13,913 nucleotides of DNA from Haloquadratum sp. J07HQX50 (lineage in GTDB: Archaea; Halobacteriota; Halobacteria; Halobacteriales; Haloferacaceae), in contig KE356562.1 in the NCBI GenBank assembly GCA_000416005.1, positions 651,356-665,268 of the forward strand, written 5' to 3'. Below, in pieces: positions 1,790 to 12,263 of this stretch; the stretch's first letter is position 1, and the number at the start of each line of letters is the position of its first letter. The notes under the pieces were generated by a model. That model worked only from the letters and a program-made list of their open reading frames with translations. It was not told where the DNA came from and did no database searches. The translations under genes and the position numbers were made by a program.

Positions 1790-3076
1790 TCAGACGGATG
1801 ATGGAAAATCTCGGTGGACCGCACCTGCTGCTTCTCGCCCACTACGAAGCGCTCCCTGTATTGCTGACCACGTCGTATAGTCTCCAGCTAGATACAGAGG
1901 CCCATCAGGGGCATCAACATCGGGAAGTTGATTATGTATGCCGGGTGGTTGTGCGAATTGTGCGAAGGGGACAGCAGTCGTTTCAACCACTTCAAGATCT
2001 GCCCACGATGTATCGGGGTACCATGCGCTGAGTGTTTCTCTCGTCTCTTCAGCAAGTCTGTCAGGGGATCGGTGCTGAGCACTCTCGTGAATAAATGTAG
2101 CGCTCAACAGAGACTCACCTGGTGGCGCATACTCGGGAGCGACACTTGATAAAGGAGCGATGGTATTTGGTGATGCACTCTCTGCGTTGAGCAGTAGCTT
2201 TGTCGAAGAGATGGGATTTTTATCAAATGGTAAGCGGTAGTACTGAGTGACAGAGCCACGTGCATCTGTCGGAATTGATGTGACTCCGCTTAGTCGTGTG
2301 GCTTCTTTGGGATCGGTCGCGATAACACCTGCATCTGCAGAGATGGAGTCATTTTCAGTCTCAATGTCAACTCCACTGTTCGTCCGGTGAATCGACTCAA
2401 CAGAGCGGTTGGTGACAATTGAGACTCCTGCAGTCCGCGCGCGACTCTCAAGTTGTTTTGCAATCGTTCCCATTCCTGCTGCTGGAATAGCTGTTCGGCC
2501 AGTGGCAAGTGATTTGAACGTATATTCGAACACACGTTTCGAGGTCGATAATGTTCGATCTAATGTAATACCGCCATAGAATGGGGAAATAAAATTATTG
2601 ATATATTGTTTTGAAAACCCCCATGACCTCAGATACTCCCGAATTGATTTATCCGGACTCTCAAAGATCTCCGTTTCTGATCGCGATTCAACGTGCTGTC
2701 TAAGCAGAAGCGTTCGGAGCTTATCGGTGAATGTCACCTCATCGTTTTGAATTGAGGCTAACGCCGACCGCGGATCACGGAGTGGGTCGGCTAACACAGA
2801 CCGAGAGTTAGGGCGGGCTATGATTGCCCCCGGAGTAAAGTATCGAAGCTGTAGTGCTTCAGTCTCTAATTCCCGTTGGACGGCAGGATATGAGGTAAAT
2901 AGCACTTGAAACCCCTCATCAAGCGTGAACCCATCGACTGTGTGGCTTCGAACGCGGCCGCCAAGTGATGAGCGTTGCTCAAATAGCATGACCTGATATC
3001 CCTGAACAGCTAACCGACGGGCAGCGACTAATCCAGCGAGTCCACCGCCAATAACGACGACAGACGATTCGTTCAT
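1790..3076 (-). CDS. FAD-dependent amine oxidase / phytoene-desaturase-like oxidoreductase
   Basis: This 428-residue flavoprotein starts with the dinucleotide-binding motif VVVIGGGLAGLVAARRL (glycines 10, 12 and 15). The acidic end of the second strand (LFEQ) and the GGR motif that contacts FAD (SSLGGRVRS) follow. It ends with the second FAD motif LYLAGDYTTWSAIQGALRSG, typical of the superfamily of protoporphyrinogen oxidase, monoamine oxidases and carotenoid desaturases. The protein is soluble apart from the hydrophobic N-terminal strand, which belongs to the Rossmann fold. The substrate cannot be read from the sequence; a desaturase or oxidase acting on an isoprenoid or pigment is possible. 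It is divergent from the threonine-synthase-like gene across 116 bp. The ATG at 3076 directly precedes the Rossmann motif, so the start is secure. Confidence 0.85.
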   Translation of the reverse strand: MNESSVVVIGGGLAGLVAARRLAVQGYQVMLFEQRSSLGGRVRSHTVDGFTLDEGFQVLFTSYPAVQRELETEALQLRYFTPGAIIARPNSRSVLADPLRDPRSALASIQNDEVTFTDKLRTLLLRQHVESRSETEIFESPDKSIREYLRSWGFSKQYINNFISPFYGGITLDRTLSTSKRVFEYTFKSLATGRTAIPAAGMGTIAKQLESRARTAGVSIVTNRSVESIHRTNSGVDIETENDSISADAGVIATDPKEATRLSGVTSIPTDARGSVTQYYRLPFDKNPISSTKLLLNAESASPNTIAPLSSVAPEYAPPGESLLSATFIHESAQHRSPDRLAEETRETLSAWYPDTSWADLEVVETTAVPFAQFAQPPGIHNQLPDVDAPDGPLYLAGDYTTWSAIQGALRSGREAAGAVHRDFPSSV

Positions 3077-3192
3077 GTCTGTACTTTCCTTTCATATCTT
3101 GATAGCGTTTCTATCCCCGTTGGAAAGCGAAGCTCTGTGGACACACCGGCTTGAATAGGTACTGATTAATCTGCAGAGTCAGATGTCTGGGT

Positions 3193-4356
3193 ATGACTCA
3201 CTCGTCCAGATATCAGGGGTTGTATTGCACTGCGTCAGGAAATGAACTATCCCCATTATCGACTGGGCCAACAGAGAGTGGTGGAAGACGTGAACCAGAG
3301 TATGAAACGACCCAACTTGGCTGGAAAGACGGTGAATTAGCCGACTACGTGAACTCAATGTGGCGGTACGCTGAGGCACTCCCATTCTGTACCCCCGTCA
3401 CGGCTGGTGAGGGACGCACACCACTTATCAAAACCGAGACACTCGCCGCAGACTGCGGGGTGAATGATCTCATAATCAAGGATGAGTCGCGAAATCCAAC
3501 AGGATCAGTCTTTGACCGCGGGCTGTCCGCAGCAGTAACAGCAGCTAAAGCGTCCGGCGCTGAACTGGTAGCCTCTGCTGGGGCCGGAAATAGTGCACAG
3601 TCAGCGGCTGCATATGCCTCAAAGGCTGGACTGCGGTCTTATGAATTCGTCCCATCACGGGCACCATTTAGCAACAAAGCGATGATTAACGTCCACGGGG
3701 GCGAAATGAAGGTTATTGATGGTCGATATTCGGATGCGAAAGCAGCTGCTGAGTCAGAACTGCAGACCGACTGGTATACATTACAGGAACGAGATAATCC
3801 ATTTCGTCATGATGCGTACAAAACAATCGCATTCGAGATCGCGGAAGCCCATAACTGGACGATGCCAGACGCGGTAGTTGTCCCCACGGCGAGTGGCGAG
3901 TTGCTCGCCGGTATTGCAAAGGGCTTTGATTGTCTCTCAGAAGCCGGGCAGATAGCCACTCAGCCACGTCTCTTTGGCGTCCAGGCAAGCGGATGTGCGC
4001 CACTTGTGGGAGCATCTGCAGAGAGCATATCTACGTGTGAAACGCCAGATACGATCATTGGAGAATTAGAAATTCCAGCTCCACTACTGGGGCATGCTGC
4101 AGTTACAGCAGCGACTGAGAGTGGTGGCTCAATCATCAGTGTTGATGACGATGTTATTCTCGAAGCTGCAGTGCAGGCCGCACAATCTGTCGCATTACAA
4201 GTCGGTGCTGCTGGTGGCGCAGCGATTGCAGGCTGTGAAGCCCTGCGTGAGATGGGAGAACTATCAGCGTCCGCACAGGTGGTTGTGATTAATACTGAGT
4301 CGGGGATACAGACGGCAGATATCCTCCGAAGCCATCTGATGGGTAAGGGCATTTAA
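3193..4356 (+). CDS. Threonine-synthase-like PLP-fold protein lacking the catalytic lysine
   Basis: This 387-residue protein follows threonine synthase over its whole length: EGRTPLIKTETLA near residue 73, the block NPTGS at 101-105, an asparagine-containing cofactor loop (SAGAGNSAQS, 128-137), VVVPTASGELLAGIAKGF, and a C-terminal NTESG phosphate-loop equivalent. In active enzymes the block reads NPTGSFKDRG, with Lys forming the Schiff base to PLP. Here it reads NPTGSVFDRG, with TTT (Phe107) at 3511-3513. The N-terminal zinc-ribbon pattern CxxCG is also reduced to CTASG (Cys12 kept, second Cys now Ser). The frame is intact and codon use looks selected, so this is not an obvious pseudogene. 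It probably does not perform PLP-lysine chemistry and may be a regulatory, scaffold or ligand-binding pseudoenzyme. The ATG at 3193 has an AT-rich TATA-like stretch (3163-3170) at about the right distance. Confidence 0.85.
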   Translation: MTHSSRYQGLYCTASGNELSPLSTGPTESGGRREPEYETTQLGWKDGELADYVNSMWRYAEALPFCTPVTAGEGRTPLIKTETLAADCGVNDLIIKDESRNPTGSVFDRGLSAAVTAAKASGAELVASAGAGNSAQSAAAYASKAGLRSYEFVPSRAPFSNKAMINVHGGEMKVIDGRYSDAKAAAESELQTDWYTLQERDNPFRHDAYKTIAFEIAEAHNWTMPDAVVVPTASGELLAGIAKGFDCLSEAGQIATQPRLFGVQASGCAPLVGASAESISTCETPDTIIGELEIPAPLLGHAAVTAATESGGSIISVDDDVILEAAVQAAQSVALQVGAAGGAAIAGCEALREMGELSASAQVVVINTESGIQTADILRSHLMGKGI

Positions 4357-4403: not shown

Positions 4404-5138
4404 ATGGTAAGCGACGTCATGGAAGACTATCTCAAGGCCCTCTATACACTGCAGCTACGAACATCGCCACCAATTCCTCCGTCAACATTAGCAACAGAAC
4501 TCGATCGAACGCCAGCGACAGTCAGTAGTATGCTTGATACGCTCGAAGAATGTGAGCTCATTGACCGTAAAAAATACCACGGAGCAACCCTCACCCAGAG
4601 GGGTGAAACACGGGCACTCGAAACCATTCGGCGGCACCGCTTGCTTGAGACGTACTTAGTCGAATATCTGGATTTTTCTTGGAGCGAAGTGCATGCAGAG
4701 GCTGAACGACTCGAACACCACATCAGTGAATTGTTTACCGACCGTGTCGCCACGGCGCTTGATGAACCAGAGGTTGACCCCCACGGAGATCCAATCCCGC
4801 GAGCCGACCTGCGTCATCCCGGATCTCATGAGGAACTCTCGCTTGCAGAGTGTGATGTCGGAGAAACTGTCTATGTCGTCAGGGTAAGAGATCGAAGTCA
4901 AGAAGAACTTGAGTACCTTGCTGCGAGTGGCATTCGGCCGGGCGCACTCCTGAGTATCACTGATTGTGCACCGTTCGGAATGACGACCGTCAATATTCAC
5001 ACGGAGGGACAGCAAAATGCAAGCGAATCCTCAGACACACAGAGTCTTCCCGAGCAGATTTCAGAGGCAATTTTCGTTCAAGCCCAGCCTGAAGCAGGAT
5101 CTGAGACTTCATCGGAGGTGAACAAAGTATATGAGTAG
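4404..5138 (+). CDS. DtxR/MntR-family metal-dependent transcriptional regulator
   Basis: This 244-residue repressor has an N-terminal winged helix-turn-helix (about residues 1-70), a dimerisation and metal-binding domain (about 71-118) and a C-terminal FeoA/SH3-like domain (about 145-200). The metal site reads MED near residue 8, RRHRLLE with His78 and Glu82, and VHAEAERLEH with His97, Glu101, Glu104 and His105. In iron-type DtxR/IdeR the position of Glu101 is a cysteine; in manganese-type MntR it is glutamate. The ligand set therefore favours Mn(II), which also fits the transporter encoded next. The last 8 bases overlap the start of that gene, so the two are almost certainly co-transcribed. 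A 45-residue, low-complexity acidic tail follows the FeoA domain. The ATG at 4404 matches the family N-terminus and its promoter spacing. Confidence 0.88.
   Translation: MVSDVMEDYLKALYTLQLRTSPPIPPSTLATELDRTPATVSSMLDTLEECELIDRKKYHGATLTQRGETRALETIRRHRLLETYLVEYLDFSWSEVHAEAERLEHHISELFTDRVATALDEPEVDPHGDPIPRADLRHPGSHEELSLAECDVGETVYVVRVRDRSQEELEYLAASGIRPGALLSITDCAPFGMTTVNIHTEGQQNASESSDTQSLPEQISEAIFVQAQPEAGSETSSEVNKVYE
5114..5121 (+). promoter_or_regulatory. Strong Shine-Dalgarno site inside the regulator gene
   Basis: GGAGGTGA matches the anti-Shine-Dalgarno end of 16S rRNA over 8 bases and ends 9 bases before the ATG at 5131. Most other starts in this window look leaderless and have no such site. 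It fits internal initiation of the second gene of the operon and supports 5131 as its start. Confidence 0.75.
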
Positions 5139-5838
5139 CTTTGCTGAGATATTTTTCGTTGCGCTCGTGGCTCAGTTAGTCGTACTCCCCGGCGAGAAGG
5201 TCCAGTTCATCATCGCTGGACTCTCCGCACGGTATGACCCTCTCGTCGTCGTTGCTGCCGCCGGGTCGGCGTTTGCAGGGTGGACGACATTAGAAATTAT
5301 GTTCGGACGTGCTCTTCAACGAGCGTTGTCACCACTGCTGCTTGACGGCATAACAGCGATACTATTTCTTGCATTCGCCATTCTCTTACTTCGGTCTGCA
5401 CCGGCATCTGCGAGCGGCGAAACAACAGCAAATCCAGAGACAGATGGAGGGCTGCCAACGCTTGAGCGGTTAGAACTACCAGGACCACTCCGGCAATATA
5501 GCAGCTCTCTCGGTGGATTTCTACCAATATTTGCACTCATGGTGACCGGCGAATTCGGCGATAAGACACAGTTAGTCACAATTGGTCTCGCGATCCAGTA
5601 TGGCGCCAGTGCCGCGATTTGGTTTGGTGAGATGGCAGCGATACTCCCAGTGAGTCTACTCAATGCATACTTCTTTCATACCTTCTCACATCGTGTGAAT
5701 GTACGCAAAGCTCACATCTTTTCGGCTGGACTCTTTGGCTTCTTCGGGCTGGATACGTTGCTTGGGATGATTACTGGATACTCTATCTGGGAAGATCTAG
5801 TCGGAACACTCACCACGGTCATCGGTTCGATTCTGTAA
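5131..5838 (+). CDS. GDT1/UPF0016 (TMEM165-like) family cation transporter, probably manganese
   Basis: This 235-residue membrane protein has six or so hydrophobic segments in two homologous halves, the architecture of UPF0016/GDT1 proteins. Members move Mn2+ or Ca2+, and bacterial ones export Mn. The second half carries the intact signature GEFGDKTQLVTIGLA (Glu141, Asp144, Lys145). The first half has only a modified form, LPGEKVQFIIAGLSARY, in place of the usual ExGDKT/SQ: its first Glu is lost and Asp is replaced by Glu. A polar linker of about 35 residues (91-125) separates the halves. Overlap with the MntR-like regulator and the shared upstream palindrome suggest expression controlled by metal, most simply for export of excess manganese. 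The ATG is fixed by the Shine-Dalgarno site. Confidence 0.85.
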   Translation: MSSFAEIFFVALVAQLVVLPGEKVQFIIAGLSARYDPLVVVAAAGSAFAGWTTLEIMFGRALQRALSPLLLDGITAILFLAFAILLLRSAPASASGETTANPETDGGLPTLERLELPGPLRQYSSSLGGFLPIFALMVTGEFGDKTQLVTIGLAIQYGASAAIWFGEMAAILPVSLLNAYFFHTFSHRVNVRKAHIFSAGLFGFFGLDTLLGMITGYSIWEDLVGTLTTVIGSIL

Positions 5839-5904: not shown

Positions 5905-6657
5905 ATGGTAACCGCGGGTATCACTCTTATTGCAGGCATTATTTTTGGAATCGCTCTTGCAGCCCCGCCTGGTCCGATGAACGCGATTATTGCTGAGGAG
6001 AGCGTCCTTCGTGGATGGAGTGCAGGCTTTTACGCTGGACTTGGGGCGATGTTCGCTGATGTGATTTTCTTCTTACTTGCTGTAATAGGCGTCGTGAGCT
6101 TCGTTCGAGACTTTCCACTGCTTCGAAGCGTGATGAGTGGTATTGGTGGCGTGTTGATGATTTACTTTGCAATGGGTGCAGTCTCTGAGCTTCGATATGA
6201 TTTTAGAATGGATCCCGAGCAATCACCTGCACCTGCGGATGACACCGATACTAATGCCAATTCCGGTGCCAGTTCAAATAGTCATACAGGATTTCTAAAA
6301 GCATTCATACTTGCACTAAGTAACCCATATCAGATATTATTCTGGTTAACGATTGGTGTTGGGTTATTACAATCAGGGCAGTTCGATATCTTAGCACAGA
6401 CACCCTATGTTGGTAATCAACTGGCAGGGATACTGATCGTTGAAACGGGGTCACCAGCGCTCCTCGTTGGCCTATTCGGTGGCATCACCGTCTGGATTAC
6501 TGGATTTCCAGCCGCGCTCGCACGGGCGAGACGACAGTCAACTCTATTAGGCCCAACAATCACTGTTCTCTCCGCGATTGTACTTGTTGGATTTGGGATA
6601 CTGTTTCTCACTCGTAGTGTCACGCAGTTGTTTCCTGTAGTCGATAGCGTCATATAA
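5905..6657 (+). CDS. LysE-family translocator (small-solute exporter)
   Basis: This 250-residue protein has about six membrane segments and the LysE/RhtB signature near the end of the first one, ALAAPPGPMNAIIAEESVLRG. The second conserved block is LSNPYQILFWLTIGVG. A hydrophilic, Asp/Asn/Ser-rich loop of about 35 residues lies between the two three-helix halves (about residues 100-130). Family members export amino acids such as lysine, arginine, threonine or homoserine, and related branches export metals, so the substrate cannot be assigned. It follows the putative manganese operon by 66 bp under its own TATA-like element, so a link to metal export is possible but unproven. The ATG at 5905 is directly followed by the first membrane helix. 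Confidence 0.85.
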   Translation: MVTAGITLIAGIIFGIALAAPPGPMNAIIAEESVLRGWSAGFYAGLGAMFADVIFFLLAVIGVVSFVRDFPLLRSVMSGIGGVLMIYFAMGAVSELRYDFRMDPEQSPAPADDTDTNANSGASSNSHTGFLKAFILALSNPYQILFWLTIGVGLLQSGQFDILAQTPYVGNQLAGILIVETGSPALLVGLFGGITVWITGFPAALARARRQSTLLGPTITVLSAIVLVGFGILFLTRSVTQLFPVVDSVI

Positions 6658-10602: not shown

Positions 10603-10860
10603 ATGACGGATGTCGAGGCGGAGCTACGCAATCAGTTTCGTGAGGCGTTCAGCAGGGCAGAGTTTCCGGTCACAAGTCAAATGGAGCTTGTACCGACACT
10701 CCCGGATGGACCAGCAACGAAGTTCCGAGCCGGGGATGTCACGCTCACTGCCATGGAGATGGGCCTGAAACTTAGCGCACATCAAGACTTCCCATATGAA
10801 GATGTCGACATATTGATAGAGGACGTGATGAAGGGATTACGGGCTGAGGAAATGATCTGA
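10603..10860 (+). CDS. MTH865-family small protein
   Basis: This 85-residue protein (start MTDVEAELRNQFREAF) matches the MTH865 family of small, helical, archaea-enriched proteins of unknown function. It has a central FRAGDVTLTAMEMG block and an acidic C-terminal helix, VDILIEDVMKGL. No enzymatic motif is visible. The frame is open from 10576, but the ATG at 10603 begins the conserved domain and lies about 26 bp downstream of a T-rich TATA-like stretch (10571-10579). It is divergent from the halocyanin gene and is followed by the decayed methylmalonyl-CoA mutase genes, from which it is separated by that module's own promoter. Confidence 0.82.
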   Translation: MTDVEAELRNQFREAFSRAEFPVTSQMELVPTLPDGPATKFRAGDVTLTAMEMGLKLSAHQDFPYEDVDILIEDVMKGLRAEEMI

Positions 10861-10925
10861 GCGTGTTTATGAGGGCATATGTACCCCGATCCGGGCTCCT
10901 CTCAGTAAAGCTGGATCGTGCACTC

Positions 10926-10934
10926 CTATTATAC
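10926..10934 (+). promoter_or_regulatory. TATA element of the decayed methylmalonyl-CoA mutase module
   Basis: CTATTATAC lies about 28 bp before the ATG at 10959, correct for a leaderless transcript. The promoter thus seems to have outlived the reading frames it served. Confidence 0.5.
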
Positions 10935-10958
10935 GATATGACAGCCATGGGCAATCAT

Positions 10959-11234
10959 ATGAACGAAGACAGCGCACATGAACGGAGATCGAAAATCCGA
11001 TGTCTTATGACGAAGGCGGGACTTGATGGCCACGACCGAGGAGCACATATTATTAGCCGGTCATTTCGCGATGTGGGCTTCGAGGTAGTCTATTCAAGGA
11101 CCGCATCGCTCACCTGAAGAGATCGTGCCGGCGGCTGTTCAAGAGGATGTCAACGTGCTCGGTATTTCAATCCTCTCAGGTGCACACTGCACGCTATCGA
11201 GTTTGTGCATGAACATGCCCCAAGCCACGGTTGA
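10959..11234 (+). pseudogene. Broken methylmalonyl-CoA mutase B12-binding (small) subunit gene
   Basis: The 5' part encodes the start of a cobalamin-binding domain: IRCLMTKAGLDGHDRGAH with the B12 motif DGHDRG, then FRDVGFEVVYS. One extra A in the pair at 11096-11097 shifts the frame and leads to an early stop (TGA, 11114-11116). Removing it restores YSGPHRSPEEIVPAAVQ and continues through DVNVLGISILSGAH. The middle is also missing: the sequence jumps near 11193-11196 from the GAHCTL block to IEFVHEHAPSHG-stop, the expected C-terminus. About 45-50 residues are lost, including the second half of the B12 fold with its usual GG and GPGT loops. The remaining 92 codons compare with roughly 140 in intact archaeal subunits. 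It cannot yield a functional subunit. The neighbouring meaB-like gene is decayed too. Confidence 0.85.
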
Positions 11235-11236
11235 AC

Positions 11237-12263
11237 ATGGTCGATTCCACAACGCAAGGGCAACCAATTGTCGAAAGACTGGTAGATAGAGATCGGCGTG
11301 CATTGGCCAGGGCAATAGCGGTTATCGAAAACCGTGAACCAGGACATAAATCACTCGTTGGAAACCTGTATAATTACCAGCGGTCAGCAAATATCATTGG
11401 TATCACCGGTAGCCCTGGCGCTGGCAAATCAACACTTGTTGATCAGCTTGCCAAACGGTTCCGAGCGCAGAACAATACTGTTGGGATTTTAGCGATCGAT
11501 CCCTCCTCACCATTTACTGGCGGTGCCGTCCTCGGAGATCGTACTCGGATGGGGTCAGCAGCCGGAGACATGGGTGTGTTTATGCGCTCAATGAGTGCAA
11601 GAGGAGCGCTTGGTGGGCTTTCAATCGCCTGTAGTGATGCAATTACGGCGTTAGGGGCGTTCAACACAGATATTATTCTTGTTGAAACGGTCAGGGCCGG
11701 GCAGGATGAAATTGACATTGTCCGTACAGCAGAGACAGTGGTTGTATTACTCCAGCCCAGCAATGGAGACGATACTCAAATGCTCAAGGCAGGAATCTTA
11801 GAGATTGCAGATCTGTTTGTCGTGAATAGAGCTGATCAACCAGGCGTTGAAAAACGATGACTGAACTCAAGCGGATGGCTCAGCGCCGTCATCTATCTAC
11901 TGGTAACGGCGTTTCACATGAAACAACTGTCGAAGCACAGGATAACGAATGCTGGGAAGTCCCAATTGAAGCGACAGTTGCGACGAGTGGGAAAGGTATC
12001 GAAGACGTAATCAACGCGATTGAAGTACATCAAACGTTTTTATCGACACCAGATACTGGAGTCCAATCTCACCGTGCACGGATTCAAACTAGCGAACGCG
12101 ACAGGAGGTCGCACGACGGATTGAAGAGGTAACCACATCGGCTCTCAGAGAAGAAGCCGTGGATAGGATCATGAGTGGATTGAGCGATCCGTATGATGAG
12201 GTTGAACGGATACTCACTGAGGCAGGCATCGAGACAGTGACAGACACGAATCAGTCTCGATAG
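11237..12263 (+). pseudogene. Frameshifted methylmalonyl-CoA mutase-associated GTPase gene (MeaB/ArgK family)
   Basis: The first 208 codons encode the G domain of MeaB, the GTPase that loads and protects B12 in methylmalonyl-CoA mutase: GITGSPGAGKSTLVDQLA (Walker A), AIDPSSPFTGGAVLGDRTRM, and NRAD as a variant of NKxD. The block normally VETVGAGQ reads VETVRAGQ. A one-base loss in the A-run at about 11849-11853 brings a stop right after GVEK; the next frame continues with TMTELKRM. A second one-base loss near 12085-12105 shifts again, and the last frame gives EVARRIEEVTTSALREE and the C-terminal dimerisation helices to the stop at 12261-12263. Repairing both gives about 342 codons, a normal length. 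The ATG at 11237 follows the mutase stop by 2 bp, so the two formed an operon. Confidence 0.87.

Follow-up and report, generated by a model that had tools for sequence, protein, structure and literature searches.

A threonine-synthase-like gene of Haloquadratum without the PLP lysine: a likely pseudoenzyme among haloarchaeal homologues

What is retained, and under what selection, when a threonine-synthase-like gene has lost the lysine that holds pyridoxal phosphate (PLP) is the question raised by a locus of Haloquadratum sp. J07HQX50. The window, i.e. the whole stretch of DNA that was analysed, comprises 13,913 bp of contig KE356562.1 (assembly GCA_000416005.1). The gene in question, here the query, lies on the forward strand, and the 61 sequences grouping with it are referred to as the query clade.

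Sequence features of the gene

3193..4356, + strand: Lys-less threonine-synthase-like gene (P0001), 387 codons without internal stop
3226..3240, + strand: CTASG, N-terminal zinc-ribbon remnant (residues 12-16), by alignment
3493..3522, + strand: NPTGSVFDRG, degenerate PLP-lysine motif (residues 101-110), by translation and alignment
3787..3789, + strand: Glu199, acidic, at the alignment position of T. thermophilus Asn154, in 57/61 query-clade sequences
3883..3912, + strand: PTASGELLAG, altered PLP phosphate loop (residues 231-240) with the Glu236 codon at 3898-3900, by alignment
4063..4065, + strand: Glu291, Glu in 61/61 query-clade sequences and Gly in 45/48 Lys-bearing sequences
4318..4350, + strand: DILRSHLMGKG, C-terminal tail common to Lys-less and Lys-bearing orthologues with small changes

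The first-pass annotation of this DNA had described a single intact frame in which Phe replaces the PLP lysine and the CxxCG zinc ribbon is reduced to CTASG, and all of this was confirmed: codon 107 is TTT (Phe, 3511-3513) and codon 106 is GTC (Val), no stop interrupts the 387 codons, and homologues with an intact ribbon (P0081, L034) have CxxCG...CPxCG. The cofactor-loop asparagine, likewise reported as kept, is Asn133 and occurs in 59/61 query-clade sequences. The C-terminal NTESG had been taken for a preserved canonical loop, which it is not, as Lys-bearing orthologues mostly have NTGAG or NTGTG and residue 369 has changed from Gly to Glu. A second half of the change had been overlooked, namely the phosphate loop, which is PTGGGVGLVG in Lys-bearing orthologues versus PTASGELLAG in the query.

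Paralogues L002 and L048 showed no LRSHLM tail, and paralogue L043 has a diverged LRAHL; in the Lys-less and Lys-bearing orthologues the tail is conserved almost throughout and may carry a function common to both. At the opposite end, Cys12 (codon 3226-3228) is invariant in 41/41 sequences of one alignment (A2), and it alone is conserved, the remaining zinc-ribbon cysteines being gone in many of these sequences including the query. An Rfam search of the window gave no match at gathering score, and a promoter and terminator scan gave nothing above chance with a bacterial consensus, which is of little use for a haloarchaeal host.

Profile membership and predicted fold

The Pfam profile PALP (PF00291) matches residues 70-368 (E-value 3.1e-63; 214.3 bits against a cut-off of 35) and places the protein in the superfamily. 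Its best NCBIfam matches are threonine synthase models, all under their curated cut-offs, i.e. PRK08197 (NF006050) with 249.5 bits against 303 and TIGR00260 with 132.9 bits against 167.1. The AlphaFold2 model of the protein obtained a pLDDT of 89.8 and a pTM of 0.91, and among PDB matches to the model threonine synthases took ranks 1-17 in Foldseek and ranks 1-10 in VIA-align.

Compared with the threonine synthases of these models, the query has Phe107 at the position of the internal-aldimine lysine that characterises the PALP/fold-type-II superfamily, ASGEL where Lys-bearing orthologues have the phosphate loop GGGVG, and Glu236 and Glu291 at active-site positions. The substrate-side arginine of threonine synthase is present as Arg205, as in 164/164 sequences compared. 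Two hallmarks of a pseudoenzyme are found together: an essential catalytic residue is lost while the fold, as predicted, is kept, and purifying selection acts in the orthologous clade, as seen from dN/dS values of 0.07-0.26 and recurring neighbour genes.

Lysine site in relatives

Lysine was found at site 107 in 0/121 sequences, formed by the query and the best 120 of 2901 matches (L 102, Y 9, H 4, F 3, V 2, D 1). In the query and 80 named loci, the best 80 of 298 relatives, the site was occupied by L 51, K 7, Y 6, A 5, T 3, F 2, H 2, R 2, V 1, G 1 and N 1, and 42 of 108 further loci, some of them from genomes already sampled, had Lys. Altogether 13 different residues occupy the position among the Lys-less sequences of the 173-sequence set used for the later trees.

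The nearest named relative found, L057 of Haloquadratum sp. LUM.47, is 97% identical to the query and also has Phe107. Since L057 comes from a separate assembly and aligns with the query gene over 1164 bases at 97.5% DNA identity and with no gap, Phe107 cannot be put down to a base-calling slip. Recent inactivation or sequencing error, in which homologues would carry Lys and this genome alone would differ, was ruled out by the same Phe in L057 and by the 0/121 count. Among the 173 tree sequences the Val-Phe pair at 106-107 is confined to the query and this sister, the query clade having mostly Val-Leu or Phe-Leu; the idea that the site is conserved in an orthologous clade accordingly stands for the Lys-less state (0 Lys in 49 clade sequences) and fails for the exact pair.

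Changes in the cofactor pocket

Pocket residues were counted in 48 Lys-bearing and 116 Lys-less sequences (164), a set with nine more paralogue or long-branch sequences left out than in the 173-sequence tree, among them Lys-less L039, L042, L045 and L046. Positions 107, 199, 205, 236 and 291 align with Lys61, Asn154, Arg160, Gly190 and Ala240 of T. thermophilus threonine synthase, residues which we take to serve the Schiff base, the substrate phosphate (Arg160 on the substrate side) and the PLP phosphate loop, from this alignment and from general knowledge of the enzyme.

Phe106, the GGG loop, Val236 and Gly291 occur together in 45/48 Lys-bearing sequences, and the GGG loop is kept in 2/116 Lys-less ones. 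The other three Lys-bearing sequences (L110, L117, L188) have Ser106, a GxG loop, Thr236 and Glu291, so that lysine alone, found here in a spoiled pocket, is no marker of an active enzyme. L110 and L117 belong to Natrinema, and in all three Lys107 has been either kept or regained.

Within the query clade Glu236 and Glu291 are present in 61/61 sequences each and Glu199 in 57/61. The 61 sequences had first been selected by Glu236 and Glu291, which makes the 61/61 circular as first counted; when the columns around 236 and 291 are omitted, however, the same 61 form exactly one clade both in IQ-TREE (support 99) and in FastTree (0.998). Of the 49 clade sequences in the earlier 89-sequence tree 49 have Glu236, 49 Glu291 and 45 Glu199. 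Other Lys-less lineages are without this set (Glu236 6/55, Glu291 14/55). Arg205 is retained in 48/48 Lys-bearing and 116/116 Lys-less sequences, and all 116 Lys-less sequences also have Asp108 and Arg109. Judged from these alignments, the PLP half of the pocket appears to have been altered as a unit. A replacement lysine elsewhere in the pocket was ruled out, as no gained Lys was found among the 12 positions conserved within both groups and differing between them.

Phylogeny and number of lysine losses

In an 89-sequence tree rooted on canonical ThrC, the query clade comprised 49/49 sequences without Lys (SH-aLRT 99). Lys-less sequences were basal in this tree with Lys-bearing ones nested inside, giving four Fitch changes, and long branches were flagged. 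Taken literally, the topology means a regain of lysine; this conflicts with the later trees, and repeated loss is preferred.

The later 173-sequence trees were computed with the pocket columns omitted and were rooted on Lys-bearing paralogues. IQ-TREE gave 13 irreversible lysine losses (10 by Fitch) and FastTree 15; with the three spoiled-pocket Lys sequences counted as lost, the figures were 9 and 7, respectively. Several forks of the IQ-TREE topology are weakly supported (11-42), and the count, ranging over 7-15 by tree and coding, is probably best read as 'several' and not as an exact number. Loss is also visible between close pairs: L128 (Asn) and L215 (Lys) are 90.5% identical, L219 (Thr) and L216 (Lys) 78.5%, and L167 (Ala) and L162 (Lys) 68%.

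Left out of the 89-sequence tree were 13 near-identical clade sequences, the partial or broken L047, L055 and L056, the distant PALP genes L005-L007, and loci L008-L033, L036 and L054 of the first genome search. Also left out of the 173-sequence tree were L003, L004, L034, L035, L037, L038, L040 and L049-L053, of which L034, L035, L037, L038 and L040 are Lys-less, and 12 of the 108 new sequences, which have identical last 300 residues.

Gene neighbourhood

1790..3076, - strand: FAD-dependent amine-oxidase-family protein, divergent neighbour, by profile; H. volcanii counterpart by position HVO_0817
3077..3192, no strand: divergent intergenic region of 116 bp between the flavoprotein gene and the Lys-less gene, by frame coordinates
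4404..5138, + strand: DtxR/MntR-family regulator, by profile; SirR counterpart by position
5131..5838, + strand: GDT1-family divalent cation transporter, by profile
5905..6657, + strand: LysE-family exporter, weak match to TIGR00949 (homoserine/threonine efflux; 49.8 bits against a cut-off of 183.95)

At many loci the gene has recurring neighbours, i.e. a divergent flavoprotein gene, upstream phosphoesterase and DnaJ-domain genes, and downstream DtxR, GDT1 and LysE genes. The set also occurs beside Lys-bearing L215, L221 and L223 (flavoprotein within 0.7 kb; DtxR, GDT1 and LysE downstream) and beside Lys-bearing L134/L217 of Halostella pelagica, in which the flavoprotein gene is 3.3 kb away and DtxR, GDT1 and LysE follow downstream. 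The same genes thus surround canonical NPTGTFKDRG copies in other haloarchaea, and therefore the lysine was probably lost in place, repeatedly in one gene.

Among de-duplicated sequences with enough flank, a divergent flavoprotein gene within 2.5 kb was found in 39/48 query-clade, 9/31 other Lys-less and 19/39 Lys-bearing sequences. Within 3.5 kb downstream, DtxR was found in 29/42, 1/33 and 8/39, and LysE in 23/42, 6/33 and 17/39, respectively, and GDT1 in 20/42 query-clade sequences. The neighbour set is far from universal and is least common in the other Lys-less lineages. As first annotated, a gap of 116 bp separates the gene from the divergent flavoprotein gene (1790-3076, - strand), which had been proposed as a partner. 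The positional part of that proposal stands in the query clade; a link to lysine loss does not, because the flavoprotein gene is also divergent beside the 19/39 Lys-bearing sequences, and a specific partner of the Lys-less form was rejected on the same count.

In H. volcanii, HVO_0817 is a flavin amine-oxidase-family gene (available text of PMC4300041) and HVO_0819 is SirR (available text of PMC11349517). As these two match the flanking genes, the query orthologue would by position be HVO_0818, of which no mention was found in the open-licence literature. Farther along the window, at 10848-12129, frames that by the look of the sequence resemble a B12-binding mutase domain and a MeaB/ArgK-type GTPase lie in pieces, and the same stretch in L057 is also gapped relative to the window.

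Retention of the gene and threonine synthases elsewhere

Across 16 overlapping pairs, of which 14 consist of two Lys-less sequences, dN/dS ranged over 0.07-0.26, the low level anticipated for a maintained protein. The value for the window and L057, 0.263, is above those of five of seven neighbour genes. Within the genus, and setting the 97% sister aside, full-length copies with intact frames are 54-59% identical, as against 81-86% for canonical ThrC; the Lys-less gene evolves faster than canonical ThrC. Two same-genus copies are broken, L055 in G008 (two TGA, one TAA and a frame change) and L056 in G001 (a frame change), and the protein may be dispensable in these two species, unless the breaks are assembly errors. 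A relative at E-value ≤1e-50 was present in 281/293 haloarchaeal genomes, with Lys-bearing, Lys-less and paralogous copies pooled, and frames were open among the matches listed in this search. The genome of the window (3.02 Mb in two contigs of ~1.5 Mb each) is rated 68% complete and that of the sister 72%.

The canonical thrC sought in the same genome is there. Three other threonine-synthase-like genes of the genome carry Lys, i.e. L002 (NPTNTFKDRG), L003 (NPTGSFKDRG) and L004 (SPTGSFKDRG), and two pass curated cut-offs, L003 with 285.5 bits against 167.1 for thrC and L002 with 378.4 bits against 303. The query is 31-39% identical to these three paralogues. ThrC of the L003 type was found in 58/60 genomes searched, its own included (E-value ≤1e-100), and the two misses are rated 56% and 76% complete. 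In H. volcanii, a transposon in HVO_2969 (thrC3 by annotation) gave an auxotroph rescued by Gly, Ser and Thr (available text of PMC4300041). Compensation by a second PRK08197-type copy is not general: at E-value ≤1e-50, two matches are listed for the genome of the window and for many other family members, and one match for the five same-genus genomes besides the window's own and for each of the seven genomes of genus g43, in which the copies are Haloferax-like.

Proposed role and alternative explanations

We consider it likely, though well short of certain, that the gene encodes a pseudoenzyme, in which a PRK08197-type threonine-synthase fold has been kept by selection for a non-catalytic role. 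The earlier reading of a fold maintained without the chemistry is supported by the conserved Lys-less clade, the low dN/dS and the canonical ThrC elsewhere. Loss of the lysine together with Glu in the phosphate loop would leave no internal PLP aldimine, and because of these two changes PLP catalysis is very unlikely; on established enzymology, PLP-dependent beta- or gamma-replacement activity would not be expected. The retained scaffold, substrate-side Arg205 and C-terminal tail may serve ligand or partner binding and the regulation of amino-acid handling. Tentatively, a ligand might be bound through the Arg205 side, and the protein might serve either the canonical threonine synthase or the adjacent genes (LysE-type exporter, SirR-type regulator, flavoprotein) as sensor or regulatory subunit; the closeness of the exporter and the regulator is suggestive only. 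The lysine seems to have disappeared on several occasions with the gene retained, which makes it probable that the Lys-bearing ancestor already had the non-catalytic role. A bolder and more speculative scheme is that the haloarchaeal paralogue had two jobs, of which PLP chemistry was dropped in place repeatedly and a second, non-catalytic one was kept; in Haloferacaceae the cofactor half might then have been rebuilt with three Glu as a new ligand or cation site, in a sensor controlling amino-acid export and the metal or redox functions encoded beside it.

As an alternative, the protein could join a Lys-bearing threonine synthase of the L003 or L002 type as a subunit without catalysis of its own, forming one side of a fold-type-II dimer and tuning the activity of the synthase. 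The near-constant presence of canonical ThrC (58/60 genomes) and a scaffold well conserved where the pocket is not agree with this, and precedents are found in TSB-like with TSA (available text of PMC12727527) and in a dead deoxyhypusine synthase paralogue (available text of PMC3663545). However, the low identity to the Lys-bearing paralogues makes a shared dimer interface uncertain, and canonical ThrC is present also where the orthologue keeps Lys (families f6, f14, f17), no coupling with lysine loss being seen; such a subunit is rather unlikely. An enzyme working without a PLP Schiff base, through Glu199, Glu236 and Glu291 with Arg205 and His206 and perhaps a cation or a different cofactor, is improbable. 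The query clade does have three acidic residues of complete or almost complete conservation at active-site-aligned positions, and DtxR and GDT1 genes often follow downstream there, but other Lys-less lineages are without the Glu set, DtxR is downstream in only 1/33 of them, and the Glu may merely pair with basic residues left without phosphate.

Very improbable, in turn, is that PLP is still bound, non-covalently or through another lysine, in a variant reaction: NPTG, DRG and Asn133 are largely kept in the query clade and Lys96, Lys162 and Lys210 are conserved, yet copies with Lys107 conserve these three lysines to the same degree, which excludes any of them as a replacement, the GGGVG loop is gone with Glu236 in 61/61 clade sequences, and position 107 takes 13 residues among Lys-less sequences. 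Least credible is a decaying gene with no function left. The faster evolution relative to canonical ThrC, the broken copies in G008 and G001 and the loss of zinc-ribbon cysteines in part of the clade would fit decay; against it stand the dN/dS of 0.07-0.26, the relatives with open frames across haloarchaeal genomes as counted above, and Glu236 and Glu291 in 61/61 sequences of one clade, for which decay is largely refuted.

Comparison with known systems

Well-known pseudoenzymes have mostly been studied as products of one old duplication. LCB1 of serine palmitoyltransferase is a PLP-fold subunit of fold type I that has no lysine and is kept as the partner of an active subunit in an obligate heterodimer. 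The likely pseudoenzyme described here shares the absence of the lysine with LCB1 but differs in fold, and whereas the LCB1 heterodimer has been demonstrated, any partner of the query would be putative. Survival of the fold-type-II fold after removal of the lysine is indicated, by PDB title, by beta-K87T TrpB (2tys) and K95A beta-cyanoalanine synthase (3vc3), which are laboratory mutants of otherwise normal enzymes, while the query combines loss of the lysine with a rebuilt pocket.

The closest precedent identified is TSB-like of eudicots, a tryptophan synthase beta pseudoenzyme and allosteric activator of its partner TSA. TSB-like is presumed to descend from a duplication and has been traced to two substitutions, E190A and D386E (AsTSB numbering), neither of them at the PLP lysine (available text of PMC12727527). 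As far as that text goes, both are fold-type-II PLP proteins retained as non-catalytic, the query so judged by sequence; in the query, unlike TSB-like, the changes extend to the PLP lysine and the phosphate loop, and their loss was apparently recurrent and in place. No description of the Lys-less family was found in the open-licence literature.

Pseudoenzymes as such are already known; what is unexpected here is a loss that apparently recurred in place. Haloarchaea offer for comparison what looks like one gene in one setting of neighbours, both with the PLP lysine and without it, and intermediates are present in the 90.5%-identical Asn/Lys pair and in the Lys sequences with a spoiled pocket; the order of events in the retirement of an enzyme should therefore be readable, and testable in the Haloferax genetic model. 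The comparison also bears on annotation: of four Lys-less orthologues scored, two (L128 with Asn, 372.8 bits, and L107 with Ala, 308.6 bits) pass the PRK08197 cut-off of 303 and would be named threonine synthase, which makes automatic annotation under that name unsafe.
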